Assembly (NCBI GenBank): GCA_028355955.1
Contig: JAOMTQ010000001.1
Coordinates: 62,001-126,000, forward strand
Direction of reading: 5' to 3'
DNA: 64,000 nucleotides
Origin: Methylophilaceae bacterium
GTDB lineage: Bacteria > Pseudomonadota > Gammaproteobacteria > Burkholderiales > Methylophilaceae
Positions 6,184 through 61,693 of this stretch are shown here, piece by piece. Positions within the stretch are counted from its first letter, which is position 1, and each line of letters opens with the position of its first letter. Position numbers and translations under genes: made by a program. The notes beneath the pieces were generated by a model, which saw only the letters and a list, made by a program, of their open reading frames with translations, was not told the DNA's origin and ran no database searches.

Positions 6184-6212
6184 CGTTGCAATTAATGTAA
6201 TTGTATATTTAT

Positions 6213-8145: not shown

Positions 8146-8146
8146 T

Positions 8147-9139: not shown

Positions 9140-10029
9140 TTATGGAAAATAAAATGACTCCGGGGCTATTATTTAAAAAAGCTATTGAAGAGGAAAGGCC
9201 TTTACAAGTTATTGGGACTATAAACGCTTACCATGCAAAACTTGCAGAAAAAACAGGTTACAAGGCGATTTATTTATCTGGTGGTGGGGTTGCTGCTGGT
9301 TCTCTAGGTGTTCCTGATTTAGGCATCTCAACCTTAGAGGATGTATTAGTTGATATAAGAAGAATTACAGACTCCACATCACTCCCCCTTCTTGTTGACG
9401 TTGATACAGGATTTGGTGGTGCTTTCAATATTGCACGAACTATTCGAAGTGTAGAAAAATCAGGTGCTGCTGCAGTTCATATAGAAGATCAAATTCAGGC
9501 AAAAAGATGCGGGCATCGTCCAAATAAGTCAATCGTTAGCCAGAATGAAATGGTAGATCGAATAAAAAGTGCGGTGGATGCAAAAAGTGATGAAAATTTT
9601 GTCATCATGGCAAGGACAGATGCACTGGCAGTCGAGGGTTTACAATCTTCGATCGATAGGGCTTGCGCATGTGTTGAGGCTGGCGCAGATATGATTTTCC
9701 CTGAAGCAATAAATGATTTGGATACCTACAAAAAGTTTACAAAATCTGTTGATGTACCTGTGCTGGCTAATATTACTGAATTTGGTGCCACCCCATTGTT
9801 TTCTCTAGATGAATTAGATTCTGTAGGTATAGCTATCGCTCTTTACCCTCTGAGTGCATTTAGAGCGATGAATAAGGCAGCCCTCAATATATACAAAGGC
9901 CTCAGAGAAGAAGGAACACAAAAAAATCTAGTCGAACAAATGCAGACAAGAGAGGAGTTATACGAATTTCTTGATTATCATAAATACGAAAAAAAACTCG
10001 ATCGACTTTTTAAAAAAGAAAAAGACTGA
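9136..10029 (+). CDS. prpB: 2-methylisocitrate lyase
   Basis: 297 residues of the isocitrate-lyase/PEP-mutase superfamily. The PrpB-specific active-site loop KRCGHRPNK is present (near residue 125), with [28 protein letters not shown] (metal-site aspartates) and [10 protein letters not shown]. Length equals the E. coli enzyme (296). It splits 2-methylisocitrate into pyruvate and succinate, the last step of propionate oxidation. The ATG at 9136 overlaps the upstream stop (ATGA); an ATG at 9142 is also possible. Its succinate would feed the SDH encoded divergently. Confidence 0.97.
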
Positions 10030-10040
10030 GGAGGCTAAAT

Positions 10041-11183
10041 ATGCCAACTGAACCAAAAAAAGTAAAAAAGGGTGTGGCTTTAGCAGGGGTTAATGCTGGG
10101 GTGACTGCTGTTTGCACAGTGGGACATTCAGGAAACGATTTACATTATCGTGGATACGATATTCTAGAGTTAGCTAAAAAATGTTCATTTGAAGAAGTGG
10201 CTTTTTTACTCATTCACGGTGAGCTACCAAATATCTCGCAATTAGATAAATATACAAAGCAATTAAAAAAATTAAGAGATATACCTGCTCATCTCAAAAC
10301 AGTTTTAGAACAAATTCCGAAAGACGCACATCCTATGGATGTAATGCGCACGGGATGTTCAATGCTTGGGATTTTAGAGCCTGAGGCTAAGGATCACAAT
10401 ATTGATAAAACAAAAGATATAGCAGATCGACTTATATCATGCTTCAGTTCAATTTTAATTTATTGGTATAAATTTTCTCATGAAGGCATACGTATCGATT
10501 GTAAAACAGATGAGGGCTCTATTGCTGGACATTTCCTTCACCTACTCCATGGGAAGACCCCTTCCTCATTACATGAGAGGTCTATGAATATTTCATTGAT
10601 ACTTTATGCTGAACATGAATTTAATGCTTCAACATTTGCTGCAAGGGTTATTACGGGGACATTGTCAGATCTATATTCTTCTATCACAGGAGCAATTGGT
10701 GCACTTAGAGGCCCAAAACATGGTGGCGCCAACGAGGTAGCAATGGAAATCATCAGTCGCTATAGCACGCCCGATGAAGCTGAGGCCGATATAAGGGTGC
10801 GTATGGCTAAAAAAGAAATTATTACAGGATTTGGTCATCCAGTGTATACAATTTCTGATCCCAGAAATGAGTGTATCAAAGAAGTATCGAGAAATTTATC
10901 TGAAGATTCTGGGGATATGAAACTCTTTGAGATATCAGATCGTATTGAAAAAGTGATGTGGGAAGAGAAAAAAATGTTTCCTAATTTAGATTGGTATAGT
11001 GCCTCCTGTTACCACTTAATGGGAATTCCAACATCAATGTTTACTCCTATATTCGTCATATCAAGAACATCTGGTTGGGCTGCACATACAATAGAACAAA
11101 GAATTGATAACAAGATAATTAGGCCAAATGCTGAATATAATGGCCCAGCTGATAGAAAAATAATTCCAATACAAGAAAGATAG
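10041..11183 (+). CDS. prpC: 2-methylcitrate synthase
   Basis: 380 residues, a citrate synthase fold. The N-terminus ([20 protein letters not shown]) and the short length are typical of PrpC rather than the longer hexameric GltA. The catalytic histidines and aspartate are visible in [19 protein letters not shown] and [14 protein letters not shown]. It condenses propionyl-CoA with oxaloacetate. A strong Shine-Dalgarno (GAGGAGG) lies before the ATG, 11 bp after prpB. It may also have citrate synthase activity, as PrpC enzymes often do; no gltA is seen in the window. Confidence 0.95.
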
Positions 11184-11198
11184 AAAGGAAAATTTAGA

Positions 11199-12662
11199 TT
11201 GCACTCACATGTTAAAAAAAATAATCAAAAACCCGACGAGATACTAGTTGAAATCGCTAATTATGTATTTGATTACAAAATTAAAAGTAAAGAGGCTTTA
11301 GAAACAGCAAAATATTGCCTTATTGATACCTTAGGTTGTGGCTTGGAGGCGTTGGACTACCCTGCCTGTGTTAAGCATTTGGGACCGACTGTACCTGGTT
11401 CCATTATTCCAAATGGAACAAAAATTCCTGGAACTAACTTTCAACTTGATCCAATAAATGGGGCATTTAATATTGGGGCAATGATTCGTTGGCTTGATTT
11501 TAACGATACTTGGTTGGCAGCCGAATGGGGTCATCCATCTGATAATCTGGGTGGGATTCTTGCTGTAGCAGACTGGGTTTCGAGAACAAAAGTTTCAAAC
11601 AAGGAAAAACCACTTCAAATGAAAGTCGTTCTTGAAGCGATGATCAAAGCTCATGAAATACAGGGCGTTATTGCATTAGAAAATAGCTTCAATCGTGTTG
11701 GGCTTGATCATGTTGTTTTAGTAAAAATTGCAACAACCGCCGTTGTATCACAGATGCTTGGCGCATCAAAAGAGCAAATTATAGATGCACTATCAAACGC
11801 ATGGGTGGATGGCCAGAGCTTAAGAACTTATCGACATGCTCCCAATACGGGATCTAGAAAATCATGGGCTGCAGGTGATGCTACAAGTCGAGGGGTAAGG
11901 CTAGCATTAATGACAATGAAGGGTGAAATGGGTTATCCAACAGCACTTAGCGCAAAAATATGGGGATTTTATGATGTTTTATTTGATGGCAAACCTTTTA
12001 AATTTAACCAAGAGTTCGGTAGTTATGTAATGGAAAATATTTTGTTTAAAATTAGTTTTCCTGCTGAATTTCATGCGCAAACAGCCGTCGAGTGTGCATT
12101 AAAACTTCATAAAAATGAATTCCATAAAATCAATAAAGTTGAAAAAATAGATGCAATTGACCATATTAATATTACAACACATGAGTCTGCGATTAGAATT
12201 ATAGACAAAACTGGACCATTAAATAACCCTGCCGATCGGGATCATTGTATTCAATATATGGTTGCCATTGGCTTGCTAAAGGGGAATTTAACAGCGCAGG
12301 ACTATGAGGACGAAGTCGCAATTGATCCAAGGATTGATCTTCTCAGAAAAAAAATGAAATGTGTCGAAAAAAAAGAATATACGGAAGATTATCTTGATCC
12401 TAATAAAAGGTCCATTGCGAATGCCATTCAAATATTTTACAAAGACGGTAACAAATCAGAACTGATTGAAGTTGAATACCCAATTGGGCACCAACGAAGA
12501 CGTGATAAAGGCATTCCCAAGCTGATTGAAAAATTCAAGGTAAATCTTTCTCGCCAATTTGATGAAATGCAATCAAAAAAAATACTTGAAAAAAGCCTAA
12601 ATTATGAAATTCTTGAGCAGATTCCAGTTAATGAGTATATGGATCTATACTGGAAAAATTAA
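11199..12662 (+). CDS. prpD: 2-methylcitrate dehydratase
   Basis: 487 residues, close to E. coli PrpD (483). MmgE/PrpD-family features include [51 protein letters not shown] and [13 protein letters not shown]. It converts 2-methylcitrate to 2-methylaconitate; an aconitase, not seen here, would rehydrate it to 2-methylisocitrate. The start is a TTG at 11199 with AAAGGA upstream; no ATG lies nearby in frame, so a TTG start is likely. Last gene of the rightward operon, overlapping the convergent gene at 12659 by 4 bp. No terminator hairpin is obvious between them. Confidence 0.95.
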
Positions 12663-45598: not shown

Positions 45599-46408
45599 TT
45601 AAATTTTTGTATATAGCGTTAGGCCTCCCGCCCACTGTTCTGAAACTTGTTTTGTATGCTTTGAGAGCATTTGTGTCATACACCAAAATTCCATATGAGG
45701 CCCATACGCCTTAAGAACCAAAATTAATCTTTCATCCTTATGGACATAAGAAGACATACATAATATTGGAGTGTAGTGGTCTTTATCAATTAGCAATTCC
45801 GGTGAGGTTATTAAGGCAGCACTTATATCCATACCTCCACTTAAACATAATTTTATTCCTTTTGTCTTTGGAAGATTTTTTAATTGAGCTCTTTGCGAAT
45901 CAATATCAAACTCTTGAAACACTTGCGGAAAATACCATCCTATTAAACCTTCTGAGCTGTCATCTATGAAATTTGTATAATTACTATCAGGATGAATGCT
46001 AATATTATTTTTCAATTCTGAATCACTTTGAAGTACAGCTTTAAAATGAGAGTTTGGAAACCTATCTGTAAATGAATCTTTTAAGGCGGGTAGTATGTTT
46101 TCCTCAAGATTTGTTCCTATATCATTAATTTTATTAGGATTAGAGTATATAAAGGGAATATGAACTCCATTAGCCATTTTAGAAAAATCATCATTTTTTT
46201 TAATTGAGTCTAGTAAATCTGTTGCTTTAGATTGAAAATGAGACAATGACAAGTCATCCGAACAGAGACCATACTTTTTTGCTCTTTGGAGAATTAATGC
46301 ATAATCAATTTTCGGTTGATTTAATTTATAATAAAAGCTAGGTTTATCGCCAAACACCCTGTCTCCATGAGCTGGTAGACGGCGACCGAAATCATCAAAC
46401 AGTTTCAA
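45599..46408 (-). CDS. Unrecognised protein paired with a radical SAM enzyme
   Basis: 269 residues, soluble, no signal peptide or membrane segment, only four scattered cysteines or fewer. The start is lysine- and aspartate-rich (MKLFDDFGRRLPAHGDRVFG) and the C-terminal half contains GIKLCLSGGMDISAALITSP, KDERLILVLKAYGPHMEFW and MTQMLSKHTKQVSEQW. I do not recognise a family. It begins 13 bp after the stop of the radical SAM gene at 46422-47633, so the two are almost certainly one transcript. It may be the substrate-binding partner or the modified target, but this is only inference from the pairing. Confidence 0.75.
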   Translation of the reverse strand: MKLFDDFGRRLPAHGDRVFGDKPSFYYKLNQPKIDYALILQRAKKYGLCSDDLSLSHFQSKATDLLDSIKKNDDFSKMANGVHIPFIYSNPNKINDIGTNLEENILPALKDSFTDRFPNSHFKAVLQSDSELKNNISIHPDSNYTNFIDDSSEGLIGWYFPQVFQEFDIDSQRAQLKNLPKTKGIKLCLSGGMDISAALITSPELLIDKDHYTPILCMSSYVHKDERLILVLKAYGPHMEFWCMTQMLSKHTKQVSEQWAGGLTLYTKI

Positions 46409-46421
46409 GAATATCTCCTAA

Positions 46422-47633
46422 TTAAATAGATTTTATAGCAAAGATAGCTCTTCTATCATCTGCTAAAATTTCTGGCGGGCTAGGCGGATTGTCATTATTT
46501 TCTATTTCTGGAGTTTTACCAAAGCCATGTTCGTATGTTACTGGGAGTAAATGGCTTACATTTTTCTGATAATCTTGAACAGATTTATTATGGAAGCGAA
46601 TAAAGTCCATATGCTCACCAATTATGCACTCGTCCCTATAAGGTCCAAGCCAACTATTCATCATCCCTCTATTAAGCACATCCTTAAGAGGCTCTTTAAC
46701 AACATTGCCGATAGACAGATCCATATAAGGACATGGAACAATTTCTCCGTCGTGGTTAACTGTATTTATTCCTTTTACCGTAATACATCTTCCAGGTTGG
46801 CCGTAGGAAGGGCTCATATGAGTGAAAATATCATATTTTCCTTCTAAATATTTGAGTTGGTCCACATCCTCTTTTGTACAAACCCAAGTATCTTGTTCTC
46901 TAGCTGTTCCAACTGGCTTAGCTAAAGTTACATACAGAGGAATATCTTCATCCTTACAAAAACTGCAAAGGTCTTCAAATTCTTTTGAAAATACTCTATC
47001 TTTAATGATACATGTAGATATAAGTAATTCTAAATTTGCTGCCTTAGAAGCTTTAAGAGCTGTCATAACTCTCTTATAAGATCCTTTTTTCCCTCTAAAT
47101 TCATCATGCTCTTCCTCTATCATGCTGTCTAAAGAAATTTGCACCTTATAACCTCCTAAACCAGCAAACCATTTTGCTTTTTCTTCATCAAAAGTCCAAC
47201 CATTTGTATCAAGAATAATAAGATGTTTTTTTGGATCTAATGCCTCAATAAGCAAATCTAAATTTTTATCTAATAATGCTTCGCCTCCAGTTAGTACAAA
47301 ACGAAAAATACCACATTCATCGGCTTGCCTTGAAAGCTCCCTATAATCATCAAGATCCATCTGGTGTCTAGGGTCCAACTTAACTCCTGTTTCTTTTTTG
47401 ATATCACGAGTCATATAAGGCTCTTCACAACAATGTGCGCAATGAAAATTACATAGTGAACGGTTAATCTTTAAACGTAAAATTGGACTAATCTCACCAT
47501 CAAGCATATTTTTAAAATATTGTTGAATTTTTTCATGAACTCTTGGACGCAGAACGCTTTGGTCTTTTCTTTTATTTTTTTCAACTAAAGATAAAGCCTC
47601 TTGATCTGCTAGGATTTGAAGCGAATCAGTCAT
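46422..47633 (-). CDS. Radical SAM protein with SPASM/twitch-like C-terminus
   Basis: 403 residues. The cluster motif CNFHCAHC (C61, C65, C68) is followed by a further Cys; FRFVLTGGEALLDKNLDLL is the GGE motif binding SAM, and KVQISLDSM marks a later strand. The C-terminal part has GRCITVKGINTVNHDGEIVP then CPYMDLSIGNV, an auxiliary-cluster (SPASM/twitch) type pattern, and a long Pro/Asn-rich tail (IENNDNPPSPPE). Such proteins modify peptides, proteins or small molecules. Strong Shine-Dalgarno (CGGGAG) before the ATG. Substrate unknown; the downstream 269-aa protein is the obvious partner. Confidence 0.88.
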   Translation of the reverse strand: MTDSLQILADQEALSLVEKNKRKDQSVLRPRVHEKIQQYFKNMLDGEISPILRLKINRSLCNFHCAHCCEEPYMTRDIKKETGVKLDPRHQMDLDDYRELSRQADECGIFRFVLTGGEALLDKNLDLLIEALDPKKHLIILDTNGWTFDEEKAKWFAGLGGYKVQISLDSMIEEEHDEFRGKKGSYKRVMTALKASKAANLELLISTCIIKDRVFSKEFEDLCSFCKDEDIPLYVTLAKPVGTAREQDTWVCTKEDVDQLKYLEGKYDIFTHMSPSYGQPGRCITVKGINTVNHDGEIVPCPYMDLSIGNVVKEPLKDVLNRGMMNSWLGPYRDECIIGEHMDFIRFHNKSVQDYQKNVSHLLPVTYEHGFGKTPEIENNDNPPSPPEILADDRRAIFAIKSI

Positions 47634-50208: not shown

Positions 50209-50237
50209 AGTAATTTGATACATGTAAATAATTGTTT

Positions 50238-51542
50238 ATGAGCTTACTTGAAAATTATACAAAACAAGACTTAATTACAAAAATAGGTGCTCAGACGATA
50301 CCTACCATAATTTATGGTGCTGGTGTTTCTGGCCAAGCCCTTCTTTTCGCTTGCAGAGAGTCTGGTATTAAGGTTGTAGGTTTCTGTGATAACAATATTA
50401 AAAAAAAGGGAAAATCGCTTCTTGATATAGAAATTATTCATACAGATGATATTAAAAGTAGATTTCCTAATGCAAATTGGCTCATAGCGTCTGCTGATAT
50501 AACTGACATAAGGGATCATCTTATCGATTATGGTTATGATGAAACTAATCTTTACCCTGGGGCCACCCTTCTAAGAGATTACAATCTAGAAAATTTCTCT
50601 AAACATTATGAATCTTATAATGAAGAAGATAATGACAAAGGTTTTATTGAGTTTGCTGTTGCCAGCACAATTCAGTGTCATGATGGCTATCTAGATTCAA
50701 GTAAAGTTTTCATGCGTAGCGTAGATATTGTAGTTACTGAAAAATGTACAATGAAATGTGTAGATTGCTCTAATTTAATGCAATACTTCGAAAAACCTGA
50801 AAGTTATGAGATCCAAGAAATGAACGAAGCAATCGAAGCATTATGTTCAGTATCTGATGAAATTTTTGAGTTTAGAGTGATTGGTGGTGAGCCTTTTGTG
50901 AACAAAGAAGTCCACCTTGTAGTTGAAAAGCTCATAGCCGAACCTAAAGTTAAAAGAATTGTTATCTACACAAACGGTAATGTTATACCAAGAGATCACC
51001 AACTTGAATGTTTAAAACATAAAAAAGTATTATTTAACATAACCGATTACTCAAGATGTGGGGAAGAGGTTGAAGATGCGTATACAAAGAAACTATCAAG
51101 ATTCCAACGTACAACGGATAAATTAGAACAAATTTGTATTGACAATCAAATAGATTACAGGAGACATCCACCTGAAAATTGGACTGATTGTGGGCGTATC
51201 GAGAAATTCAATAGGACTGAGGAAAAAAATCAAGAAGTATTCGACGCTTGTTGCTGTAAGAACCTTACAACATTATCAAAAAATGAGCTTCATAGATGTC
51301 CATTTTCTGCACAAATTACTAGATTAGACGTCTGTGATGAAAAAGTTGATTATGTTGATCTAACCGTCGCATCCGACATATCAGATAAGAGAAATGAAAT
51401 ACAGTCATTGTTAGAAAGTAAGGTTGCACTTAAAGCATGCGATTATTGTCCAGGGAGGGCTCTGCATGACCCGCAAATTACTCCAGCTGTTCAGATAAAA
51501 ATGCCTCTTCCTTATGAGAAGAAGCAAAAAGCTTCAGCCTAA
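50238..51542 (+). CDS. Rossmann-fold domain fused to a radical SAM domain
   Basis: 434 residues from the ATG at 50238 (a TTG at 50232 adds two residues). Residues ~22-115 form a small Rossmann-like unit (TIIYGAGVSGQALLFA, VVGFCDNN) like the nucleotide-sugar/PglD-type N-domain; a linker follows; the radical SAM motif is CTMKCVDC (C170, C174, C177) with RVIGGEPFVNKEV as the GGE motif. The C-terminal part holds many cysteines (CCCKN, HRCPF, CDYCPGRAL) suggesting an additional Fe-S cluster. No clear Shine-Dalgarno. Location among glycosyltransferases suggests a sugar- or glycan-related modification, but the reaction is unknown. Confidence 0.85.
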   Translation: MSLLENYTKQDLITKIGAQTIPTIIYGAGVSGQALLFACRESGIKVVGFCDNNIKKKGKSLLDIEIIHTDDIKSRFPNANWLIASADITDIRDHLIDYGYDETNLYPGATLLRDYNLENFSKHYESYNEEDNDKGFIEFAVASTIQCHDGYLDSSKVFMRSVDIVVTEKCTMKCVDCSNLMQYFEKPESYEIQEMNEAIEALCSVSDEIFEFRVIGGEPFVNKEVHLVVEKLIAEPKVKRIVIYTNGNVIPRDHQLECLKHKKVLFNITDYSRCGEEVEDAYTKKLSRFQRTTDKLEQICIDNQIDYRRHPPENWTDCGRIEKFNRTEEKNQEVFDACCCKNLTTLSKNELHRCPFSAQITRLDVCDEKVDYVDLTVASDISDKRNEIQSLLESKVALKACDYCPGRALHDPQITPAVQIKMPLPYEKKQKASA

Positions 51543-51545
51543 TCG

Positions 51546-52382
51546 CTATACTTTTAGATAGGCTTTAAGCTTCTCTAAACATAAAAAATAACCATACTCA
51601 ATAACACGTATCATTTTTGATACTAATAACAAGAAATGAAGATAAAATGTTTGCTTAAAAATTATTTTAATCATTTTATCTCTGCACTTATATCTCCCCT
51701 CAATCATAAAAGATGAACCATAAGATTTATTTGTATGGCTTTCGGGCCATATTCTAAAATCTGCTAACAATTCTTTATTAAAAACTAGTTTCTTTTCTTT
51801 AGCGTAGCAAGAAGTAATCATGAAATCTATGTCTGTAGTATAGGGAATATCATAAAATTTTGAGTTTTTAAAAAATTTTGTTTTTAATAATTGCGATGAC
51901 GGAGTACCTAAATAGTTTCTATAGAAAATTGAGATGAGTAACTCAAAGCCAAAAAAACCATATGTTCTTCTACCAATTTGATTATTTTTTTCGTCAATGT
52001 ACCTAATTCCTGAAGTAAAACCAGCGATTGCATCATCTGTTTTTTCGAGTGTATTAATTGCTATAAAAAGAAAATTCTTGTCCAACATATCGTCAGAACC
52101 TAATAACTTAAAGTACTTATAATCACCAATATAACTTATACATCTTGACCAATTATCTGCTTGAATAACAAAATTATCGTGAGTCTGAATTATAATTTTT
52201 TTTTGATTAATAAGTCTTTGGTAATTTTTTTTTAACATCTTAATTGTATTATCAGATGAATTATTATCAACAATTGTTAAGACCCAAAATTTATAAGACT
52301 GATTTATAACAGAATCTATTGTTTCCTTAATTAAATTAGACCTATTAAATGTAGGTATTAAAATATGAATTGTTTCTGGCAT
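51546..52382 (-). CDS. Glycosyltransferase family 2
   Basis: 278 residues. IHILIPTFNRSNLIKETIDS, VIN-QSYKFWVLTIVDNNSSD and LLGSDDML (the DxD equivalent) place it in GT2. The C-terminal third is rich in aromatic and basic residues and has one hydrophobic stretch, so it may be membrane associated. It is the last gene of the leftward rfb operon, 15 bp after the SDR gene, and convergent with the radical SAM gene. Likely adds a sugar to the surface glycan made by this locus. Confidence 0.88.
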   Translation of the reverse strand: MPETIHILIPTFNRSNLIKETIDSVINQSYKFWVLTIVDNNSSDNTIKMLKKNYQRLINQKKIIIQTHDNFVIQADNWSRCISYIGDYKYFKLLGSDDMLDKNFLFIAINTLEKTDDAIAGFTSGIRYIDEKNNQIGRRTYGFFGFELLISIFYRNYLGTPSSQLLKTKFFKNSKFYDIPYTTDIDFMITSCYAKEKKLVFNKELLADFRIWPESHTNKSYGSSFMIEGRYKCRDKMIKIIFKQTFYLHFLLLVSKMIRVIEYGYFLCLEKLKAYLKV

Positions 52383-52397
52383 AATTGAATTATGTTC

Positions 52398-53447
52398 TTA
52401 TTTTGATATTATTTGAGCAGTTTTTATTATTGAGTCTTCAATGCTATGCCACTCATCGACTTTTAAATCATTTATGATTTTTTTATTGTTTGGAACATAA
52501 ATACTTCGATCAAAATTATCATTTTTATTATTCTGATTTAAAAACATAATTTTTTTACTTGGAGAAACTAGGTCTTTAACTTTAACAGCTAATTCTTTAA
52601 TTGATATTTTTTCACTTGAGCCAACGTTGTATATTTTATTATCTGTTCCAGAAATGAGCATTTTAAATAACCATATCATTGCATCAGCTATATATAAATA
52701 TGACCTAATATCATTTCCAGTCCCTTTGACAGTAATTGTTTCTTCATACAACGCATCATTTAAAAAGTTACCAATTGCATAGTGAATATTTAGAGGAAGG
52801 TAAGGACCTACGAAAGAGAAACATCTAGCAATATTAAATGATATTTTATGTTTATCACAGTAATAAGCTATTACATACTCAGCCAATCTTTTTCCCTCGC
52901 CAAGAGCTGAGGAAATATCAGTTGTTATTGGTGCTTTTACTGAAGACTCAATATAATCATTTTGAGATGACAGTGAGCCATAAGCTACTCCAGAAGATGT
53001 AAAAATTATTTTTTTAACATTTGCCTTGATTAGCTGCTCCATTAAATTCTTAGTTCCCTCGTACAAAAGATCAATTTTATTAATTTGACTCTCATTATTA
53101 AATGTTTCTAAGGCATTTGTTGTAGCCATATGAAAACAATAGTCAATTTTCTGACTGCCAATTGAAAAATTTCTGATATCAGACTTTATAAAATTTATTT
53201 TTCCGACAAAAATTGGATTATTTTTTAAGAAATTCTCAGGGTCTCTACTTAAAGCATAAACATTGATATTACATCCATAATTTTCATTAAGGTCATGAAA
53301 TATAGACAACATCCAAATTCCAAAAAAACCTGTAGCACCTGTCACGAGTACATTCTTATTTTTTAGATATGCAACGTCCCCAAGCAGCTTTGATGTAATG
53401 AATTTTATATCATTACTTATATCAATATTAATATTTGAAGTCTTCAT
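52398..53447 (-). CDS. NAD-dependent epimerase/dehydratase (extended SDR), catalytic Tyr replaced
   Basis: 349 residues. The cofactor loop is VLVTGATGFFGIWML (~33-47) and the active-site serine region is IIFTSSGVAYG (~148-157). The usual YxxxK motif reads L-GEG-K (Leu182, Lys186; CTT on the coding strand), so the general-acid/base tyrosine is missing. The rest of the domain, including ARCFSFVGP and GTGNDIRSYLYIADA, is intact. It overlaps the Nudix gene by 20 bp. In this cluster a 4-keto-sugar reductase or epimerase would be expected; with Tyr lost it could have altered chemistry or act after a partner. Substrate unknown. Confidence 0.85.
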   Translation of the reverse strand: MKTSNINIDISNDIKFITSKLLGDVAYLKNKNVLVTGATGFFGIWMLSIFHDLNENYGCNINVYALSRDPENFLKNNPIFVGKINFIKSDIRNFSIGSQKIDYCFHMATTNALETFNNESQINKIDLLYEGTKNLMEQLIKANVKKIIFTSSGVAYGSLSSQNDYIESSVKAPITTDISSALGEGKRLAEYVIAYYCDKHKISFNIARCFSFVGPYLPLNIHYAIGNFLNDALYEETITVKGTGNDIRSYLYIADAMIWLFKMLISGTDNKIYNVGSSEKISIKELAVKVKDLVSPSKKIMFLNQNNKNDNFDRSIYVPNNKKIINDLKVDEWHSIEDSIIKTAQIISK

Positions 53448-53946
53448 TAATATACTTAGAAAAAGTTAGTTGATTTGCAAGAAGATTGTCAGGAGCATTT
53501 TTATGCCAAGCCCACTGTCCATGTTTAGGTTTACCTTCCAAGAACTGATCTGCCTTGATACTTGTTTTTAATCTGCAAGGACAAAGCAATGAAATGAAGT
53601 GACCTCTAATATCACGCCCTTTTGCGAAAAGTTCTCTTATAGCAATGGGGTGTTCTTCATGTGTCACCTCAGCCCCGAGTTCTTTTCTTGCAACTTTCAA
53701 AATTCTTGAATCAAATTTTTCTCTAAACCTAATTATTCCACCAGGAATATGCCAAGCAGGCCCATAAAATTTATCATCACGCCATGTCAACAACGTCTCA
53801 TTTAATTCATTCTTTATTAATAAATCTACGTTTACTAATGGTGTTAATTTACTTATAAAATAAAATATTTCCTCTGTTAACCCTTCTCTGGGATCATCAA
53901 TATAATGTTCAATCTCTAATAAAAGCTTATTTAATGATTTACTCAT
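53428..53946 (-). CDS. Nudix-fold protein, GDP-mannose mannosyl hydrolase-like
   Basis: 172 residues. PAWHIPGGIIRFREKFDSRI is followed by KVARKELGAEV; the canonical Nudix box (REUxEExGU) is degenerate, as in GDP-mannose mannosyl hydrolases, which release the free sugar from a nucleotide sugar. The N-terminal 35 residues are additional. It overlaps the methyltransferase gene by 4 bp and the SDR gene by 20 bp. The true nucleotide-sugar substrate is unknown; a CDP-sugar would be consistent with the cluster. Confidence 0.8.
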   Translation of the reverse strand: MSKSLNKLLLEIEHYIDDPREGLTEEIFYFISKLTPLVNVDLLIKNELNETLLTWRDDKFYGPAWHIPGGIIRFREKFDSRILKVARKELGAEVTHEEHPIAIRELFAKGRDIRGHFISLLCPCRLKTSIKADQFLEGKPKHGQWAWHKNAPDNLLANQLTFSKYINEDFKY

Positions 53947-55079
53947 TTGATAATCTCTAGATTATCTTCACGTAAAACGGCAATATTTTGTATGAAAGGA
54001 TATTTAGTATTAATAATTTTTACAATCTCATCAGAAAAACCAGCTGCCATCACAATAATAGACTCTGGTTTGTCTTTAAGCATAAAGTCAGGTTTATTTA
54101 TTAATAAGTGTGATTCTGGGGTGTATTTATTTTGCTTAAATGTTGCAGAATCAACTATATAACTAATTTTTTTCTTAATATTTGATAATGAAATAACTGT
54201 TAATGCCTGATGCCCTGCCCCCCAGATCACTGTTTTATTAGCATTGATTTCATCTAAATAATCATTCAATGATACTTTTATAATTTTAAATTTCTTATTG
54301 AAAATTTCTACATTAAGTGGCTCCCTTCTTACAACCTCTGCAGATATAATATAATCATTCCATATATTTTTAATTGATAGAATTTCAAAGCCATTGGAAG
54401 TCAAAAAATTTGATAATGATTTCTGATCAAAATAAAATATATGATCAACCGTAAATTCGGTATATAAACCTTTAGCCTTAATCATATCAAAATTAGGAAC
54501 TTCAATTAGTCCATAAGCATTTGGATTTAAAAACTTATTTAAAATTTCGACTCCTAATTTAAGATTTGGCCAATGCTCCATAAAACTAAAAATTGCAAAA
54601 GCATCAAATGGTTGACCTTTTATGTCCTCTAAACCATCTTCTAGATAACCTTGAGTGGCATTATTTCCTTTAGATAAGATGTACTCAATATTGCTCTTCT
54701 CAAACTCAAGCCCAAAAACCTTTTTCACACCAATTTTTTTGAATAAATCTAAGTATTCGCCCCTACCACTTCCCACCTCGAGTATAGATTTATTTTTTAG
54801 AGAATATTTTTGTAGCCAGTCATCTAATTGCTGCAAACGAAAATCCGTCATTTCCTTAGAAAAAGAAACAGCTCTTATAACTTTTTTATAATAACTTACA
54901 GGTTGCGAATTATGTTGAATTAATCCACATTTTGAACACTGGTAAATTTTAAGTGTAACTGGCGCATCATTTGAAGATGTTAAATTATTAATAAAATTTT
55001 GTGCAGATTCAGGAGAATTTTTATAAGTTAGTAATGGTGTCTCAAAGAGTTCAGCTCCACATGATCTACAATTATTCAT
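53943..55079 (-). CDS. Zinc-ribbon class I methyltransferase with C-terminal Rossmann domain (sugar C-methyltransferase-like)
   Basis: 378 residues in three parts: an N-terminal zinc ribbon (C4, C7, C48, C51), a SAM domain (SILEVGSGRGEYLDLFKK at ~95-112, then FSFMEHWPN), and a C-terminal Rossmann-like domain starting at TVIWGAGHQALTVISL (~278). This architecture is that of TylCIII/NovU-type nucleotide-sugar C-methyltransferases, whose C-terminal domain binds the sugar nucleotide. It would methylate a keto-sugar carbon. Next to the CDP-sugar genes it may add a branch methyl. Starts one base after the ThDP gene stop. Confidence 0.88.
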   Translation of the reverse strand: MNNCRSCGAELFETPLLTYKNSPESAQNFINNLTSSNDAPVTLKIYQCSKCGLIQHNSQPVSYYKKVIRAVSFSKEMTDFRLQQLDDWLQKYSLKNKSILEVGSGRGEYLDLFKKIGVKKVFGLEFEKSNIEYILSKGNNATQGYLEDGLEDIKGQPFDAFAIFSFMEHWPNLKLGVEILNKFLNPNAYGLIEVPNFDMIKAKGLYTEFTVDHIFYFDQKSLSNFLTSNGFEILSIKNIWNDYIISAEVVRREPLNVEIFNKKFKIIKVSLNDYLDEINANKTVIWGAGHQALTVISLSNIKKKISYIVDSATFKQNKYTPESHLLINKPDFMLKDKPESIIVMAAGFSDEIVKIINTKYPFIQNIAVLREDNLEIIK

Positions 55080-55080
55080 A

Positions 55081-56919
55081 TCAATTTTTTATTTTCATTG
55101 ATTCTTTACTTAACGGATAAATCATTTGTTGTTTTAATTCTTCTCTTGATAGAAGTGGACTCATATCCTCAAGTGGCATTGATATCATTGAGCCATTTTT
55201 TTGAGGGATTGCTGCAGATTTTGGCCAGAGAATATCATCTTTTTTAAGCATAACTTCACAAATAATTGATTCTTTAAAATCAACTATAAGTTTAAGTTTT
55301 TTTTCAAGTTCTTCAATTCTATTTATCTGGATTGACTTAATATTGAAAGCTTTTGCTAAATCTTTTATTGGAGGTATATTTAATTGACTTGATGAATCTG
55401 TTGCAATTGATCTTCCTTTAAAGTAATTATTTTGTGTGTTCCTTATCGATGCATATCCATTATTATTCATTATTATAATTTTAACTATTCTATCGAGTGA
55501 TTTTAATGTAGCTAACTCCTGAATATTCATCATCAAACTACCATCACTTTCAATAGCAAAGATATTTTTCTTTTTTGTAGCAGCAGATGAGCCAATAAGG
55601 GCGGGAATACCATAACCCATAGAACCAAGACCTGATGTTAGAAAAATTCTTTGATTTTTCTTATTTCTAAAAGCAGTATAAAAAGACTCTACAGCCAGAC
55701 CGGAACTTCCAGTTACAACTAAAGAATTTTCAGGTATTGCATCAGATAATTTATCAACTAATTGAAAATGACTTATTATTCCCTTTTTTGGAAATGGTAC
55801 TCCATCGTTTAAGCAATACTTGCTTTTCCAACTATTACATTTTTTAATCCATTCACTATAGTTAGTTAATTTTTTTTTATCCACCTTTTTTAAAAGTTGA
55901 TATATAAAGCTTTTTGCATCACTTTGAATTTTAAAATCTACTTTATGAGTGAATTTTTTTAATTCAGCAGCATCAATATCTACTATAATTTTTTTAGCAT
56001 ATCTTGCGAAGTTTTTTGGATTATATGCAGTGACTACATTATCTAATCTAGCCCCTATTGAAATAATTAAATCACAATTTTGAACAGCAAAATTTCCAGC
56101 TCTTAGAGCAACAGTCCCCGGCCTTCCAATATTTAATTTATTTTTATGCTCCATTAAGTCAAGAGCATTCCATGTAAAAACAGTAGGAATTTTTAATAAC
56201 TTTATTAGCTTCTTAAATTCTTTCTCAGCACCGGACAGTCTTACACCGTGACCAATTAAAAATAATGGTCTTTTTGCTTCATATATTAATTTTAAAATCT
56301 TTTCATACTTTAAAATATTTTTACTATCCTTTACTTCTTTAGTTTTAAATCCTCTTATAATATTTGAATTAACTACAGTCGCTTGAATATCTAAAGGGAC
56401 GTCTAACCATACAGGTCCTTTTCTACCATCCTTAGCCAAAAAAATAGCTTTTTCCAGCTCATACTTAATATCAGTTGGTTTTTGTATTGTTTTAGCATAC
56501 TTTGTAATGCTTTGAACAATTGATGTTATATCAACTTCTTGGGGTCCTTTTTGCCTAACTCCACTATCTAACTTTAAATCTTCTCTCTTTACTTGTCCTG
56601 AAATTACCAACAATGGTACAGATTCAATCCAAGCACCAGCTACTCCTGTAATTGCATTTGTTGATCCTGGTCCAGTTGTGACCATTGCAACCCCTAATTC
56701 TTCATTAATTCTGGAAAATGCCTCTGCACAGATTGTAGATGCCTGTTCATTTTGATTAGCAATAAACTTCATATTTTTACATTTAGCGACTGCATCATTT
56801 AAAAACATTGCACCACCACCAGGCACCAAGAAAATATAATTAATTCCAATTTTCCTCAGGTATTCAATAATAAAGTCAGCGACTCTTACTTTTTTTTCTT
56901 TTTTAATTGATAAATGCAT
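55081..56919 (-). CDS. ThDP-dependent acetolactate synthase-like enzyme (YerE-like candidate)
   Basis: 612 residues. N-terminal ThDP-binding PYR domain (FLVPGGGAMFLNDA, NEQASTICAEAF with the activating glutamate, TTGPGSTNAITGVAGAWIES), a central FAD/DHS-like domain (IGHGVRLSGAEKE), and a C-terminal PP domain (GSMGYGIPALIGSSA, ESDGSLMMNIQEL-AT for the metal site). It looks like an acetolactate synthase large subunit but lies inside a sugar operon. In yersiniose synthesis the ThDP enzyme YerE adds a two-carbon unit from pyruvate to CDP-3,6-dideoxy-4-keto-glucose; the neighbouring rfbF, rfbG and rfbH genes would make that acceptor. The assignment is inferred from context; ordinary acetohydroxyacid synthase activity is an alternative but lacks an ilvN partner here. 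Confidence 0.85.
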   Translation of the reverse strand: MHLSIKKEKKVRVADFIIEYLRKIGINYIFLVPGGGAMFLNDAVAKCKNMKFIANQNEQASTICAEAFSRINEELGVAMVTTGPGSTNAITGVAGAWIESVPLLVISGQVKREDLKLDSGVRQKGPQEVDITSIVQSITKYAKTIQKPTDIKYELEKAIFLAKDGRKGPVWLDVPLDIQATVVNSNIIRGFKTKEVKDSKNILKYEKILKLIYEAKRPLFLIGHGVRLSGAEKEFKKLIKLLKIPTVFTWNALDLMEHKNKLNIGRPGTVALRAGNFAVQNCDLIISIGARLDNVVTAYNPKNFARYAKKIIVDIDAAELKKFTHKVDFKIQSDAKSFIYQLLKKVDKKKLTNYSEWIKKCNSWKSKYCLNDGVPFPKKGIISHFQLVDKLSDAIPENSLVVTGSSGLAVESFYTAFRNKKNQRIFLTSGLGSMGYGIPALIGSSAATKKKNIFAIESDGSLMMNIQELATLKSLDRIVKIIIMNNNGYASIRNTQNNYFKGRSIATDSSSQLNIPPIKDLAKAFNIKSIQINRIEELEKKLKLIVDFKESIICEVMLKKDDILWPKSAAIPQKNGSMISMPLEDMSPLLSREELKQQMIYPLSKESMKIKN

Positions 56920-56937
56920 TTAGTTTATGTTTATAAA

Positions 56938-58449
56938 CTACGAATTTGAAAAGAAGGTAACATGAGTCTTTCGATCCATATTTTTGTTTATTGCATCATC
57001 CGAATAAAAAGAGTCATCCTTGAAATGTGTATCAGATATTTCTTCAATAATACAGCCACTTTTACTTGAAAATTCATGCCTAACTTCTTTTTCTACAGTA
57101 ACTATATCGCCAGGATTCAATATACTTTCTTTACCATCAAGAATTAAAGATGCATCGCCATAAAGCAACCTAAAGGTTTCCTCTTTTTTTGTATGATATT
57201 GCTCTGGGTGATTCTGGCCGGCGAAACAAATTAATAATTTTTTACAGTAAGTTCTATTGATTAAAGTAAATATGCACATACCAAATTTATCAAATTTATC
57301 AATACCATAATGATGAGAAATTTCTAAAATAATTTTATTTGGAAGTTTAATATCTGCATCAGATACTATCTTCTTTACCTGATTTACAATTTTTTCAAGA
57401 TTTTTTCTAGAATTAATATTTTTAGAATTTTTTCTACTCAGAGATTGGTTTTTTGTTACATTTTTAGTTAATGTAAACATCGAGTATTTTGAGAAGTCAT
57501 TCGCAGTATATTGGTCCTCTTCTGATGGAAATGCAAAATATACATCAGCGGGTGTTACAACATGCCCTGTATCTAGGCTAGCCTTAAAAAATACGCCCCT
57601 TTGCAAAGATTTTAAGCTCTTTTGCTCATCTTTGTTATCTAGAACTCTTTTATTACCCTCACCACAAACATTTTGTGCGAAGCTAGCAGCCTTCAGCCAA
57701 TCCTCAAACTGATTAAGGTCAACTGAATATTTATTAATAGGATACTCCTCTGTTGGTAAAGCTATATGTTTTTCAAAAATATCAGCTCCCTTTGATATTG
57801 CCATTTTTATCATGTCAGTTGACCCAGGATTCTCATGAGTTGAGAATCCTACTCTTACATCACAATATCTTTTTTTAAGAAAATCTATCTGTGATAAATT
57901 CATATTTTTATCTGGCGTTGGGTACTGTGCGACACAGTGCATTATCGCAAAATCCTTATCCCTATTACTAAAAAAAGAAATTACATTGTCTATTGTTTCT
58001 AGATTAGCCCCTGCAGTAGAAGCTATTATAGGTAAATCTAACTGAGCAGCCGATTCAAGAAGTGGCCAGTCACCGAATGAACAACTTGCAATTTTCACAA
58101 TATCTATTGGCTGCTTTTTAATTAAATTATATGATTCGTTATCAAAAGCAGTAACCATAGCAAAATTTTTATTGTCTTTAATGCAATTTATCAATAAATC
58201 AAAATCCTCCTCATTTAATCTAGTTTCCTGAAATCTTTTAATGTAGCCTAAATCAAATCTTTCTTTAAAGTCTTCATGAATAAAACTATCAAGATGCCTA
58301 TACTGAAGTTTAAATGCGTAATTAAACTGAGGATATTTTTTACACACCTTTGAATACTCTTTAATCAAATTAATACCATGTTGCACATCACCCATGTGAT
58401 TATTAGCAATTTCTAAAACTACTAAATTTTCTGGAAGTAAAGAATTCAT
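56938..58449 (-). CDS. NeuB-family sialic acid synthase-like protein with SAF and cupin domains
   Basis: 503 residues. Residues ~1-265 are a NeuB TIM barrel ([49 protein letters not shown]), ~275-345 an SAF/antifreeze-like domain ([20 protein letters not shown]), and ~390-485 a cupin ([36 protein letters not shown]). NeuB enzymes condense phosphoenolpyruvate with an aldehyde sugar to make a nonulosonic-acid-type product; the C-terminal cupin fusion is unusual and could supply a sugar isomerase step. It overlaps rfbH by 4 bp. No CMP-sugar transferase is seen in the window. Confidence 0.85.
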
Positions 58450-59765
58450 TCAAATTTAACTCCTAAAAATTGTTCAATATTATCAGCTACATAAGATAGC
58501 ATTTCTTCTGTCAGCCCTGGATAAACACCTATCCAAAAAGTATGATTCATTATTCTATCTGTATTATTTAGATTATCGAAGATTTTAAATTTTATATCCT
58601 TCATTGAAGGTTGTTTTGTTAAATTTCCTGCAAACAGAAGTCTAGTTCCAATATTTTTCTGAGTTAGAAACTCGATAAGATCAAGCCTTCTTACAGGTGA
58701 GTTTTCTTTCATCGTAATAGGAAAACCAAACCAAGAAGGTTCTGAATTTTCAGTTGCTACCGGAAGATCAATGAAATCTTTACAACTTTGAAGTCTATTT
58801 AATAAATAATTAAAATTATCTATTCTTTTTTGTATAAAAAAATCGAGCTTATTAAGTTGAGCTAAGCCACAAGCTGCCTGCATATCAGTGATTTTTAAAT
58901 TAAATCCTATATGGCTATAGGTATACTTATGATCGTAACCGTGAGGTAAATCTCCTAATTGCCAATCAAATCTTTTACCACACGTATTGTCTTTACCTGG
59001 CTCACAATAACAATCCCTACCCCAGTCTCGATATGACTCAATTATTTTTTTTAACTCATGTTGATTAGTAAATACTGCTCCCCCTTCACCCATCGTTATA
59101 TGGTGAGCAGGATAAAAGCTGAGGGTTCCAATATCACCAAACGTTCCAGTATATTGTCCATTATATTTTGAACCGAGTGCATCACAATTGTCTTCAATCA
59201 ACCATAATTTATATTTCTTGCATAAATCAACCACCTTTTTTAAATTAAAAGGATTACCTAATGAATGAGCAATAACAATTGCCTTAGTTTTTTCATTTAT
59301 TGCTGGTTCAATTTTATCAACATCAATGTTGTGAGTTAGCAAATCAACATCAATAAATACAGGAATAGCTCCAAATTGAATTATTGGATTTACAGTCGTT
59401 GGGAAGCCAGCAGCAACAGTAATTACCTCATCACCCTTTTTTATTGCCCTATCTTTAAGTTTTGGTGATGTTAGTGCAGTAAAAGCAAGTAAATTTGCCG
59501 AAGATCCTGAGTTTGTGGTTAATAAATACTTAATGCCTAAGAAATTTGATAATTTTTTTTGAAAATCATCATTAAATCTACCGGTTGTTAGCCAACCATC
59601 TAAGGACGCCTCAACCATTGAAGTAATTTCTTCGTGATCAATTACCTTGCCAGATGCTGGTATGAATGTCTCGCCAGGTACAAAGCTATTCTCAGAAGAA
59701 TATTTCTCGTTTGCAAAATTCTTTACTGAGCTTAGTATATTATTTATTTTATTAGTTTGATCCAT
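58446..59765 (-). CDS. rfbH: CDP-4-keto-6-deoxy-D-glucose 3-dehydrase (PLP/iron-sulfur, RfbH/DdhC)
   Basis: 439 residues of the DegT/DnrJ aminotransferase fold. The PLP-site lysine is replaced by histidine in [17 protein letters not shown], the hallmark of the E1/RfbH dehydrases that remove the 3-hydroxyl. Cysteines [11 protein letters not shown] (~245-255) provide Fe-S ligands. It makes the 3-deoxy intermediate of CDP-3,6-dideoxyhexoses. The reductase partner (DdhD/E3) is not visible. It follows rfbG after 62 bp. Confidence 0.93.
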
Positions 59766-59827
59766 TTTGTTTTTTTATGTAATTGTTAATTAAAAGAGTT
59801 TAAAGAGAGGTTTGGTTTAAATATGAA

Positions 59828-60925
59828 TCATTTTAACAAAGATTCGTATTTTTTTATCTGATCTAAAGTATATAATTGCATATTATTATCCTCCAAATAA
59901 AAATTCCTATACCACTCACAAGTAAATGCAATTGTATTCTTAATTGTTAACAGAGGATGCCAATTCAACTTTGATGTTGTTTTTGAGATATCCAAATTTA
60001 ACAAATTAGCTTCATGTTGTTTGGATCTATCTTTACTGTAACTTATATCTACATCCTCATTCCACTGCAAAGCCAATTCTTCAAGAACATTTTTAACAGT
60101 TGAAGTATCTTTATTATTTGGCCCAAAATTCCAAGCTTCACTGTAACCTTCATTTTTAAACATAAGCTCAGCTAAAATCAGATAACCTCTAATAGGCTCC
60201 AAAACATGCTGCCAAGGTCTGGTTGCACTAGGATGTCTTATGTGCATGGCTTTTTTTTGAGAAACCGCTTTAAAAAAATCTGGGATTAACCTATCTGCAG
60301 ACCAATCACCTCCACCTACTACATTTCCCGATCTAGCTGAAGCAATAGATGTTATAGAGGATTTATCACTATTTTCATTAAAAAAAGAAAGCCTATAAGC
60401 TGACGTAACTAGCTCTGAACAACCCTTACTTGAACTATATGGGTCATGCCCACCCATGCGATCAGTCTCTTTGTAGGAATACTGTTTTTCAATATTTTCA
60501 TAACATTTATCACTTGTTACATTTATAAAAGCTTTTACATAACTTTTATTTCTAATAATCTCTAAAATATTTAATGTTCCAATAATATTAGTTTTGTATG
60601 TATCCAGAGGGTTTTTATACGACTCAAGGACAAGAGCCTGAGCTGCCATATGAATTATAATTTCTGGTTTAGCATTAATGATTGATGATTCTAATTTTTT
60701 ATAATCAAGAATATTTCCGAAAATAGAATTTGTTACTGACCCAATATCACATGCGTTATAAAAAGAAGGGTCGGTATTTGGTTCTAAGGAGTATCCGGTA
60801 ACGTTTGCACCAAGCTGACTAAGCCAAAGTGATAACCAGCCACCCTTAAAGCCAGAATGTCCTGTAATAAAAACGTTTTTTCCATTCCAAAAATTTTTAT
60901 CTGGAAATAAATTAACTTTATCCAT
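59828..60925 (-). CDS. rfbG: CDP-glucose 4,6-dehydratase
   Basis: 365 residues, extended SDR. Cofactor loop VFITGHSGFKGGWLSLWL (residues ~18-35), NVTSDKCYEN, the active-site region YSYKETDRMGGHDPYSSSKG with YSSSK giving the YxxxK motif, and RPWQHVLEPIRGY are hallmarks of RfbG/DdhB. It makes CDP-4-keto-6-deoxyglucose. It lies 6 bp after rfbF. The substrate is supplied by the neighbouring cytidylyltransferase. Confidence 0.96.
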   Translation of the reverse strand: MDKVNLFPDKNFWNGKNVFITGHSGFKGGWLSLWLSQLGANVTGYSLEPNTDPSFYNACDIGSVTNSIFGNILDYKKLESSIINAKPEIIIHMAAQALVLESYKNPLDTYKTNIIGTLNILEIIRNKSYVKAFINVTSDKCYENIEKQYSYKETDRMGGHDPYSSSKGCSELVTSAYRLSFFNENSDKSSITSIASARSGNVVGGGDWSADRLIPDFFKAVSQKKAMHIRHPSATRPWQHVLEPIRGYLILAELMFKNEGYSEAWNFGPNNKDTSTVKNVLEELALQWNEDVDISYSKDRSKQHEANLLNLDISKTTSKLNWHPLLTIKNTIAFTCEWYRNFYLEDNNMQLYTLDQIKKYESLLK

Positions 60926-60931
60926 TCTAAA

Positions 60932-61693
60932 CTACCATACTTTCCAAGGAGGATTTTTTTTCCATAACTCCTCTAAGTCAATTTTATCTCTCATTGTATC
61001 CATTGGTCGCCAAAAACCTTTATGGAAAAAAGAGCTTAATTGCCCCTCTTTCGCAAGATTTCTGAGTGGTTGTTGCTCCCAAATTGTTGAATCATTTTCA
61101 ATATAATCAAATATTTTAGGCTCTAAAACAAAAAATCCACCATTTATCCACCCTCCATCTCCCTGCGGTTTCTCAATAAAGCCTTCTACTAAATCATTTT
61201 TAATTTTTAACGCACCAAAACGGCCAGGTGGTTGCACTGCTGTTATGGTACCTAGGGTTGATTGTTTTTTATGAAAGTCTAAGAGTTGCGCTATATTAAC
61301 ATTTGAAACCCCATCACCATAAGTCATACAAAAGGTATCGTCGATTTGATCTTTTATTCTTAACAATCTTCCACCTGTTTGAGAAAAATCACCAGTATTA
61401 ATCAAAGTTATTGACCAAGGATCAGAATTCTTTTTTTTGATATCTATTGAGTTATCTTTTAAATTTATTGTGACGTCAGAACTGTGAAGATAATAATTTG
61501 AAAAATATTCCTTAATTAAATACCCTTTGTATCCGCAACAGATAATGAACTCGTTGATACCATAAAATGAATAGAGTTTCATAATATGCCAAATAATTGG
61601 CATATCTCCAATTTCTATTAAGGGTTTTGGCTTGGAGATTGATTCTTCTGATATCCTAGTTCCAAGTCCGCCTGCTAATATAACTGCTTTCAT
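60932..61693 (-). CDS. rfbF: Glucose-1-phosphate cytidylyltransferase
   Basis: 253 residues. AVILAGGLGTRISEESISKP (nucleotide loop), MPIIWHIMKLYSFYGINEF and TYGDGVSNVNI (metal-site aspartate) match RfbF/DdhA. It makes CDP-glucose from CTP and glucose 1-phosphate, the entry reaction of CDP-deoxysugar pathways. First gene of the leftward operon. A near-perfect AT-only inverted repeat (61699-61714) lies just upstream of the start and could affect translation. Confidence 0.96.
   Translation of the reverse strand: MKAVILAGGLGTRISEESISKPKPLIEIGDMPIIWHIMKLYSFYGINEFIICCGYKGYLIKEYFSNYYLHSSDVTINLKDNSIDIKKKNSDPWSITLINTGDFSQTGGRLLRIKDQIDDTFCMTYGDGVSNVNIAQLLDFHKKQSTLGTITAVQPPGRFGALKIKNDLVEGFIEKPQGDGGWINGGFFVLEPKIFDYIENDSTIWEQQPLRNLAKEGQLSSFFHKGFWRPMDTMRDKIDLEELWKKNPPWKVW

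Follow-up and report, generated by a model that had tools for sequence, protein, structure and literature searches.

The stretch of DNA considered here, hereafter the window, comprises 64,000 nucleotides from the genome of a Methylophilaceae bacterium (contig JAOMTQ010000001.1), a small-genome aquatic member of its family whose assembly (1.09 Mb) is 78.6% complete. It carries a run of nine packed minus-strand genes, reading from 61693 to 51546, that form a candidate operon for a branched surface sugar: rfbF, rfbG and rfbH, a gene for a NeuB-cupin fusion, a gene for a thiamine diphosphate (ThDP) enzyme, and genes for a methyltransferase, a Nudix-like protein, a short-chain dehydrogenase/reductase (SDR) and a family 2 glycosyltransferase (GT2; 51546..52382, assigned by Pfam). 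The intergenic gaps from rfbF to the GT2 gene are 6, 62, -4, 18, 1, -4, -20 and 15 nt, the negative values denoting three overlaps. All nine open reading frames (ORFs) listed for this interval in an earlier note, made from the letters of the sequence, are present, and all lie on the minus strand. Loci fetched from other genomes are referred to below by L-numbers and genomes by G-numbers.

Acceptor genes and the ThDP enzyme

The first three genes, proposed in the earlier note to provide the precursor of a deoxysugar linked to cytidine diphosphate (CDP), encode proteins that all exceed the NCBIfam equivalog cut-offs: RfbF, a glucose-1-phosphate cytidylyltransferase (60932..61693; TIGR02623, 423 bits against a cut-off of 300), RfbG, a CDP-glucose 4,6-dehydratase (59828..60925; TIGR02622, 478 bits against 278), and RfbH, of the CDP-6-deoxy-4-hexulose 3-dehydrase type (58446..59765; NF011936, 741 bits against 423). 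RfbH can be aligned with PDB entry 3bcx over 417 residues; His221 occupies the place of the pyridoxal phosphate lysine of aminotransferases, the replacement that the earlier note had described, and cysteines 194, 252, 254 and 262 are in register with 3bcx. With these three genes, the set for a CDP-4-keto-3,6-dideoxy acceptor is present in the operon. A candidate electron-transfer partner for RfbH is the best match in the window's own genome to a reductase-like protein of L173 (36% identity); neither of these two proteins reaches any NCBIfam cut-off. The idea that the relatives L009 and L010 lack CDP-sugar genes was dropped, a wider fetch having given rfbF- and rfbG-like ORFs (identified by eye) about 10-15 kb away, together with a second RfbH-like protein (35% identity) that by eye also has His at the Lys place.

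The ThDP protein (55081..56919) has three TPP domains recognized by Pfam, a catalytic glutamate (Glu58) and the cofactor motif SDG where GDG is expected; SDG is likewise found in its near relatives, and JanthE has CDG. Its best match among solved structures is 8rph, at 374 bits, compared with 245 bits for the best acetohydroxyacid synthase (AHAS), and 8rph is JanthE, a YerE-like enzyme according to the available text of PMC12188165. In a tree of 101 sequences, in which the outgroup branches are long and the outgroup does not form one side of a branch, the protein groups with JanthE and with enzymes from glycan loci, apart from AHAS II, the genome's own IlvB and an IlvB-like control. The YerE-like character that had been suggested for this protein is borne out by both score and tree, which, as far as sequence can tell, set it apart from housekeeping AHAS. 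It is very improbable that it is an AHAS of amino acid synthesis located in a glycan region by chance. Its top NCBIfam matches are AHAS models, but every one of them falls below the cut-off, the closest solved relative is JanthE, and the partnership with NeuB described below is conserved. Furthermore, the genome holds an adjoining housekeeping pair elsewhere, in which the gene for a small subunit (196 bits, cut-off 57) comes directly after that for an acetolactate synthase (840 bits, cut-off 538), so that the grouping with a housekeeping AHAS beside ilvN, against which the earlier note had wanted the phylogeny checked, is not seen. The part of the tree that contains JanthE also holds the enzymes of L121, L122 and L174, which adjoin 4-hydroxy-2-oxovalerate aldolase genes, and for this reason 4-hydroxy-2-oxopentanoate may be the natural donor of JanthE.

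The NeuB-cupin protein and its partnership with the ThDP enzyme

The protein encoded between rfbH and the ThDP gene (56941..58449), the proposed maker of the donor keto acid, is a fusion of a NeuB-type phosphoenolpyruvate (PEP) aldol synthase (residues ~1-330) and a lyxose-isomerase-fold cupin (residues ~345-503), an architecture read from the sequence in the earlier note and now found by Pfam and in an AlphaFold2 model (mean pLDDT 90.8, pTM 0.73). The NeuB part of the model matches 3g8r (46% identity, TM-score 0.95 by target length) and the cupin part matches the D-lyxose isomerases 2y0o and 7nzq (TM-score 0.68 by target length, root mean square deviation 2.5 and 1.7, respectively); phmmer agrees. 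All of the 10 fused proteins compared have the cupin metal residues H419, E424 and H458; at place 417 seven have Gln and three His.

The window NeuB misses the curated cut-offs for N-acetylneuraminate synthase (116 against 400 bits) and pseudaminate synthase (104 against 340 bits), and in a tree of 121 rows it belongs to a separate NeuB clade, the 89 rows of which constitute one side of a branch with SH-aLRT support of 100. In NmNeuB numbering, E25, K53, K129, S132, S213, H215 and H236, which presumably serve in PEP and metal binding, are invariant in all 89 clade rows and 88 of them retain T110; N184 is conserved in neither the clade nor the ordinary NeuBs, and the place of D247 is taken by V, I or L in 84 of the 89, compared with D in 30 of the 31 ordinary NeuBs. 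When 185 genomes of the class were scanned with a profile built from four NeuB relatives, the resulting 44 rows comprised three at 493-956 bits, including the window's, and 41 at 113.4 bits or less; the other two high-scoring genomes (G309 and G217) are both among the eight of 369 that contain a ThDP match at E 1e-120. At E 1e-40 a clade NeuB was found in four of 23 listed genomes of the same genus, the window's included, and in five of 150 genomes overall, and L021, from a Methylophilaceae bacterium contig, carries a NeuB gene 99% identical to that of the window. A mobile origin was considered and rejected. For NeuB there were three phage-collection matches (44-55% coverage, 22-26% identity) and 88 plasmid matches, the 20 that were listed having 54-61% coverage and 24-27% identity; the ThDP protein gave 12 phage-collection matches at 28-31%, three of them annotated as acetolactate synthase and the others unannotated, and no plasmid match at 1e-80.

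A scan of a genome collection with the NeuB profile confirmed 114 stretches, of which the best 80 were kept (L021-L100), and the top 33 of the 41 rows with an ordinary NeuB provided the control. Within the fetched flanks of these best 80 loci a ThDP gene is present in 72, on the same strand as NeuB in 65 of the 72, with a median gap of 138 nt and 37 pairs lying within 200 nt of one another; RfbH or its second type occurs in 42 of the 80, RfbF in 40, RfbG in 37, the methyltransferase in 10 and the Nudix-like gene in six. The eight loci lacking a ThDP gene include four that are short or start near a contig end (L034, L069, L083 and L090), two from Candidatus Actinomarina, and two from Accumulibacter with full flanks (L036 and L059). 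Only one of the 33 control loci has a ThDP gene, the product of which is 30% identical to the window's and lies near IlvB in the tree. Pairwise distances, uncorrected for species relatedness, correlate between ThDP and NeuB with r 0.62 (n=78; 0/999 permutations as high), and between RfbH and RfbF with r 0.36 (n=39; 0/999). The corresponding values are 0.06 for ThDP-RfbH (n=53; 198/999), 0.14 for NeuB-RfbH (n=44; 123/999), 0.20 for ThDP-RfbF (n=48; 8/999) and 0.19 for NeuB-RfbF (n=43; 33/999). By these measures the gene set is conserved, as the neighborhood comparison called for in the earlier note was intended to establish, and NeuB and the ThDP enzyme appear to diverge together; NeuB, which had been regarded as one odd extra in the operon, is on this comparison the partner of the ThDP enzyme.

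Ordinary ulosonic acids require a cytidine monophosphate (CMP)-sugar synthetase. A profile for such enzymes, built from two control-locus proteins and their relatives there, found a CMP-sugar synthetase-like gene in 28 of the 33 control loci, three of the 80 NeuB-clade loci and none of the 28 loci selected by ThDP enzyme alone (see below), a comparison that favors the control loci since the profile was trained on them (up to 30 ORFs). One of the three clade exceptions is KdsB by NCBIfam (L062), and the other two are the Actinomarina loci (L029, 7848-10491; L030, 8968-14704), where a NeuB-cupin gene lies near a cytidylyltransferase gene (nearest to PseF, below the PseF cut-off) and no ThDP gene of the YerE-like kind was found. 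The same ulosonic acid is perhaps CMP-activated there, and the ThDP enzyme and the cytidylyltransferase therefore look like alternative consumers of the NeuB product. Similar rfb/NeuB loci also occur in L047, L049 and L090, in records titled Thermoleophilia, Bifidobacterium and Actinobacteria; the label of L049, a record titled as a Bifidobacterium breve metagenome-assembled genome, is probably a binning error.

Donor modules, tailoring genes and the proposed pathway

Selection by the ThDP enzyme alone, with the window excluded, gave 28 loci, seven from 369 genomes of the class and 21 from 349 of the phylum. The NeuB described above is encoded within the fetched stretch in 10 of these and elsewhere in the genome in three (L157, L159 and L160), two of which have the ThDP gene near a contig end. 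Five other loci carry a DmpG-like and DmpF-like pair (L121, L122, L171, L173 and L174) and six a gene for an HpcH/HpaI-family protein (L119, L123, L167, L168, L169 and L175), with 25 nt to 5.9 kb between donor module and ThDP gene; in the remaining four (L170, L172, L176 and L177) no donor module was found. The DmpG proteins of L121, L171, L173 and L174 score 370-386 bits against the 4-hydroxy-2-oxovalerate aldolase cut-off of 286 and the DmpF of L121 scores 368 bits against 282, the L122 pair being assigned by Pfam alone; the HpcH label relies upon a Pfam match of 35 bits in L119 (cut-off 25), to the product of which the others are 44-47% identical. L173 additionally encodes an HpaI-like protein (153 bits, cut-off 369). 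The 33 control loci contain no HpcH, no DmpF and one DmpG-like match at 30%. At least one rfb-type gene lies in the fetched flank of 20 of the 28 loci. An AroB-related protein recurs among ThDP loci, whether of the NeuB or of the HpcH type (L118, L119, L044, L048, L062, L073, L169 and L175); that of L119 is TIGR04425-like, below cut-off.

The loci L176 and L177 contain RfbF, RfbG, RfbH and ThDP genes and, by eye, a short SDR, which we take to be the gene set of a yersiniose cluster; their ThDP sequences branch outside the others and their genomes gave no NeuB match at E 1e-15. A yersiniose-type pathway in the window, in which the ThDP enzyme would add a two-carbon unit from pyruvate and the ulosonic acid made by NeuB would enter the same glycan as an unrelated component, could draw on identical acceptor genes, and YerE itself prefers pyruvate according to the available text of PMC12247030. 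Such a pathway is nevertheless unlikely, given the scarcity of CMP-sugar synthetase-like genes beside the NeuB clade, the co-divergence of NeuB with the ThDP enzyme, the replacement of NeuB by aldolases in other loci, and the separate position of L176 and L177, the most yersiniose-like loci, which have no donor module.

The remaining genes of the operon would encode tailoring functions. The methyltransferase (53943..55079) matches Methyltransf_23 (PF13489) and Methyltransf_14 (PF08484) above the Pfam cut-offs and has the N-terminal CxxC pairs (Cys 4, 7, 48 and 51) of the TylCIII/NovU type to which it had been ascribed, with no Pfam match to the N-terminal zinc domain. The next protein (53428..53946) had been called a Nudix protein, a label that stands only weakly: no Pfam family matches at E 0.001, and the one NCBIfam match, to GDP-mannose mannosyl hydrolase (NF011963), is at 39 bits, below the cut-off of 146. 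A methyltransferase match of at least 120 bits occurs in 13 of 110 scanned loci, accompanied in 12 of them by the Nudix-like gene (L019 and L024 being one contig). Both genes are present in L167 and L168, loci whose fetched stretch contains HpcH but no NeuB, and because of this combination they may act on something common to both donor types. The SDR (52398..53447; Pfam) is an extended one; the gene is present as described in the earlier note, but the catalytic Tyr of its YxxxK motif is replaced by Leu182. An alignment of 57 SDRs has Leu at this place in 12, the window's included, and Tyr in 43; of the other 11 loci with the Leu type, eight (L021, L022, L024, L028 and L157-L160) lie within the window's part of the ThDP tree, but so do L023, L117, L161, L162 and L165, which have Tyr-type SDRs.

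A radical SAM/SPASM gene (46422..47633, minus strand; Pfam) is a possible further tailoring member by co-occurrence, its relatives (at least 100 bits) being found in nine of the 110 loci (L019, L020, L022, L026, L157, L158, L160, L162 and L164) and adjoining methyltransferase and Nudix genes in other loci. The nine genes within the limits proposed for the operon in the earlier note stand, and its extent may have been drawn too narrowly. Beside this gene, at 45599-46408 (minus strand), is a gene for a 269-amino-acid protein that has no Pfam or NCBIfam match and recurs in L019, L020 and L026. Another radical SAM protein, which has a NeuD-like stretch at its N terminus, is encoded at 50232-51542 (plus strand) and is 71-72% identical to its counterparts in the same-genus loci L019/L024 and L020/L028.

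Sequence comparison indicates the gene families, the relationship of the ThDP enzyme to YerE, the distinctness of the NeuB clade and the integrity of its PEP and metal residues, the NeuB-ThDP partnership and the alternative aldolase modules. We consider it probable that the product of the operon is a 3,6-dideoxyhexose that is CDP-activated and bears a long branch at C4, NeuB supplying the donor of the ThDP enzyme. We infer the reactions of the NeuB-cupin and ThDP proteins, the sequence in which they occur, the identity of the aldehyde and every tailoring step as follows. RfbF, RfbG and RfbH, assisted by an electron-transfer protein encoded elsewhere, would yield CDP-4-keto-3,6-dideoxyglucose, the acceptor. 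The NeuB domain would condense PEP with a free aldose, which the fused cupin may provide from a ketose, to give a 3-deoxy-2-ulosonic acid, an alpha-keto acid that the YerE-like enzyme would decarboxylate, adding the resulting acyl carbanion to the ketone at C4. The product would be tailored by the methyltransferase, the Nudix-like protein, the SDR and perhaps the radical SAM protein, and glycosyltransferases would then place the branched sugar in a surface glycan. With NeuB as partner of the ThDP enzyme and most likely the source of its donor keto acid, a branch of more than the two carbons suggested in the earlier note is probable.

NeuB could alternatively act last: a branched sugar would be freed after the ThDP step, perhaps via the Nudix-like protein, and PEP would be joined to its aldehyde to give a branched ulosonic acid. 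Free aldoses are the substrates of NeuB family enzymes, and the operon does encode a protein resembling GDP-mannose hydrolase, but the product would require CMP activation, genes for which are nearly absent, and aldolase exchange fits donor supply better. The Nudix-like gene moreover goes with the methyltransferase, even in L167 and L168, whose fetched stretches hold no NeuB, for which reason its candidacy as supplier of free sugar to NeuB was rejected; this order of events seems decidedly improbable.

Several observations weigh against donor supply by NeuB as set out above. The SDR expected to reduce the branch ketone has Leu for the catalytic Tyr, one cupin metal place is Gln in most of the fused proteins, and the distance correlations carry no correction for species relatedness. 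L170 and L172 are without any donor module within the fetched flank, the aldolase gene lies ~6 kb from the ThDP gene in L167 and L175 and on the opposite strand in L123, and in eight of the 28 ThDP-selected loci the fetched flank is without any rfb-type gene; the shares of the donor modules are biased and form no unbiased census, since the ThDP search profile was built from NeuB-linked enzymes. In addition, the available text of PMC9912281 reports that erwiniose and a caryophyllose-like sugar differ in the C3 hydroxyl and that a 3-O-methyl form occurs in R. palustris, and a 3-deoxy acceptor does not account for branched sugars that bear a C3 hydroxyl.

In its broader form the proposal is of a widespread sugar-to-sugar C-C coupling, in which clade NeuBs, present in records titled with many phyla, make sugar-like alpha-keto acids that feed YerE-like enzymes instead of being CMP-activated, exchange for DmpFG or HpcH/HpaI aldolases changes the branch, and the isomerase-like domain and the methyltransferase of the window lead to a C-methylated branched sugar with at least 12 carbons; we regard the chances of this form as evenly balanced. 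Elsewhere in the window, 6201-12662 (plus strand) contains ORFs that by eye resemble CitE/malyl-CoA lyase, MaoC and methylcitrate-cycle genes, with a GntR-type regulator adjoining (5262-5969).

Comparison with known branched sugars and NeuB enzymes

Among enzymes of long-branched sugars, ErwE and MMAR_2332 favor 4-hydroxy-2-oxo acid donors in the available text of PMC12247030. The accessible parts of the respective sources give 10 carbons for erwiniose (PMC8657720) and 12 for caryophyllose, whose C4 bears a hydroxylated C6 chain (PMC7821131), and report that a lipooligosaccharide precursor without terminal caryophyllose results when MMAR_2331, 2332 or 2333 is deleted (PMC5706390). The carbon sums, six plus four for erwiniose and six plus six for caryophyllose, are consistent with the proposed coupling. 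Both sugars, from their names, have a CH2 beside the newly formed carbinol, the signature of an aldol reaction of PEP or pyruvate.

The source of the hydroxylated keto acids for erwiniose and caryophyllose is not stated in the literature examined, and the pattern described here offers a testable answer. No description of a pathway with the full gene set was found in the searched literature, in agreement with the earlier note, nor any report linking NeuB with YerE-type pathways, although some central papers lie outside the coverage and an earlier proposal is possible. The acceptor genes and the ThDP chemistry are of an already known kind; what appears to be new is a donor maker of the NeuB type, the joining of this protein to a domain with an isomerase fold, and the rule of donor exchange. 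The recurrence of the NeuB-ThDP pair in many kinds of bacteria suggests an origin for the long side chains on rare surface sugars. If the proposal holds, the neighboring gene would provide a rule for guessing the branch, 3g8r, the title of which gives a putative function only, would acquire a role, NeuB-type products would have a second fate, and natural donors might be assigned to JanthE-type biocatalysts.

The yersiniose A pathway (RfbF/G/H type, YerE and YerF) shares with the window the acceptor genes and a YerE-like ThDP carboligase, whereas the window adds the NeuB-cupin, methyltransferase and Nudix-like genes and its donor is probably not pyruvate. The erwiniose and caryophyllose pathways (ErwE and MMAR_2332; available text of PMC12247030) have the long C4 branch and hydroxylated keto acid donors that are proposed for the window. 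The NeuB, PseI and LegI synthases have fold, PEP residues and metal residues in common with the window NeuB, which differs in belonging to a separate clade, in the replacement of D247, in the usual absence of a CMP-sugar synthetase from clade loci and in the cupin fusion. The putative spore coat polysaccharide protein E of Chromobacterium violaceum (3g8r) matches the NeuB part, and its solved chain is without a cupin. Finally, the D-lyxose isomerases 2y0o and 7nzq share the fold of the window cupin, which is distinguished from them by its fusion to NeuB and by the Gln that takes the place of one His of the HxH motif in seven of 10 fused proteins.

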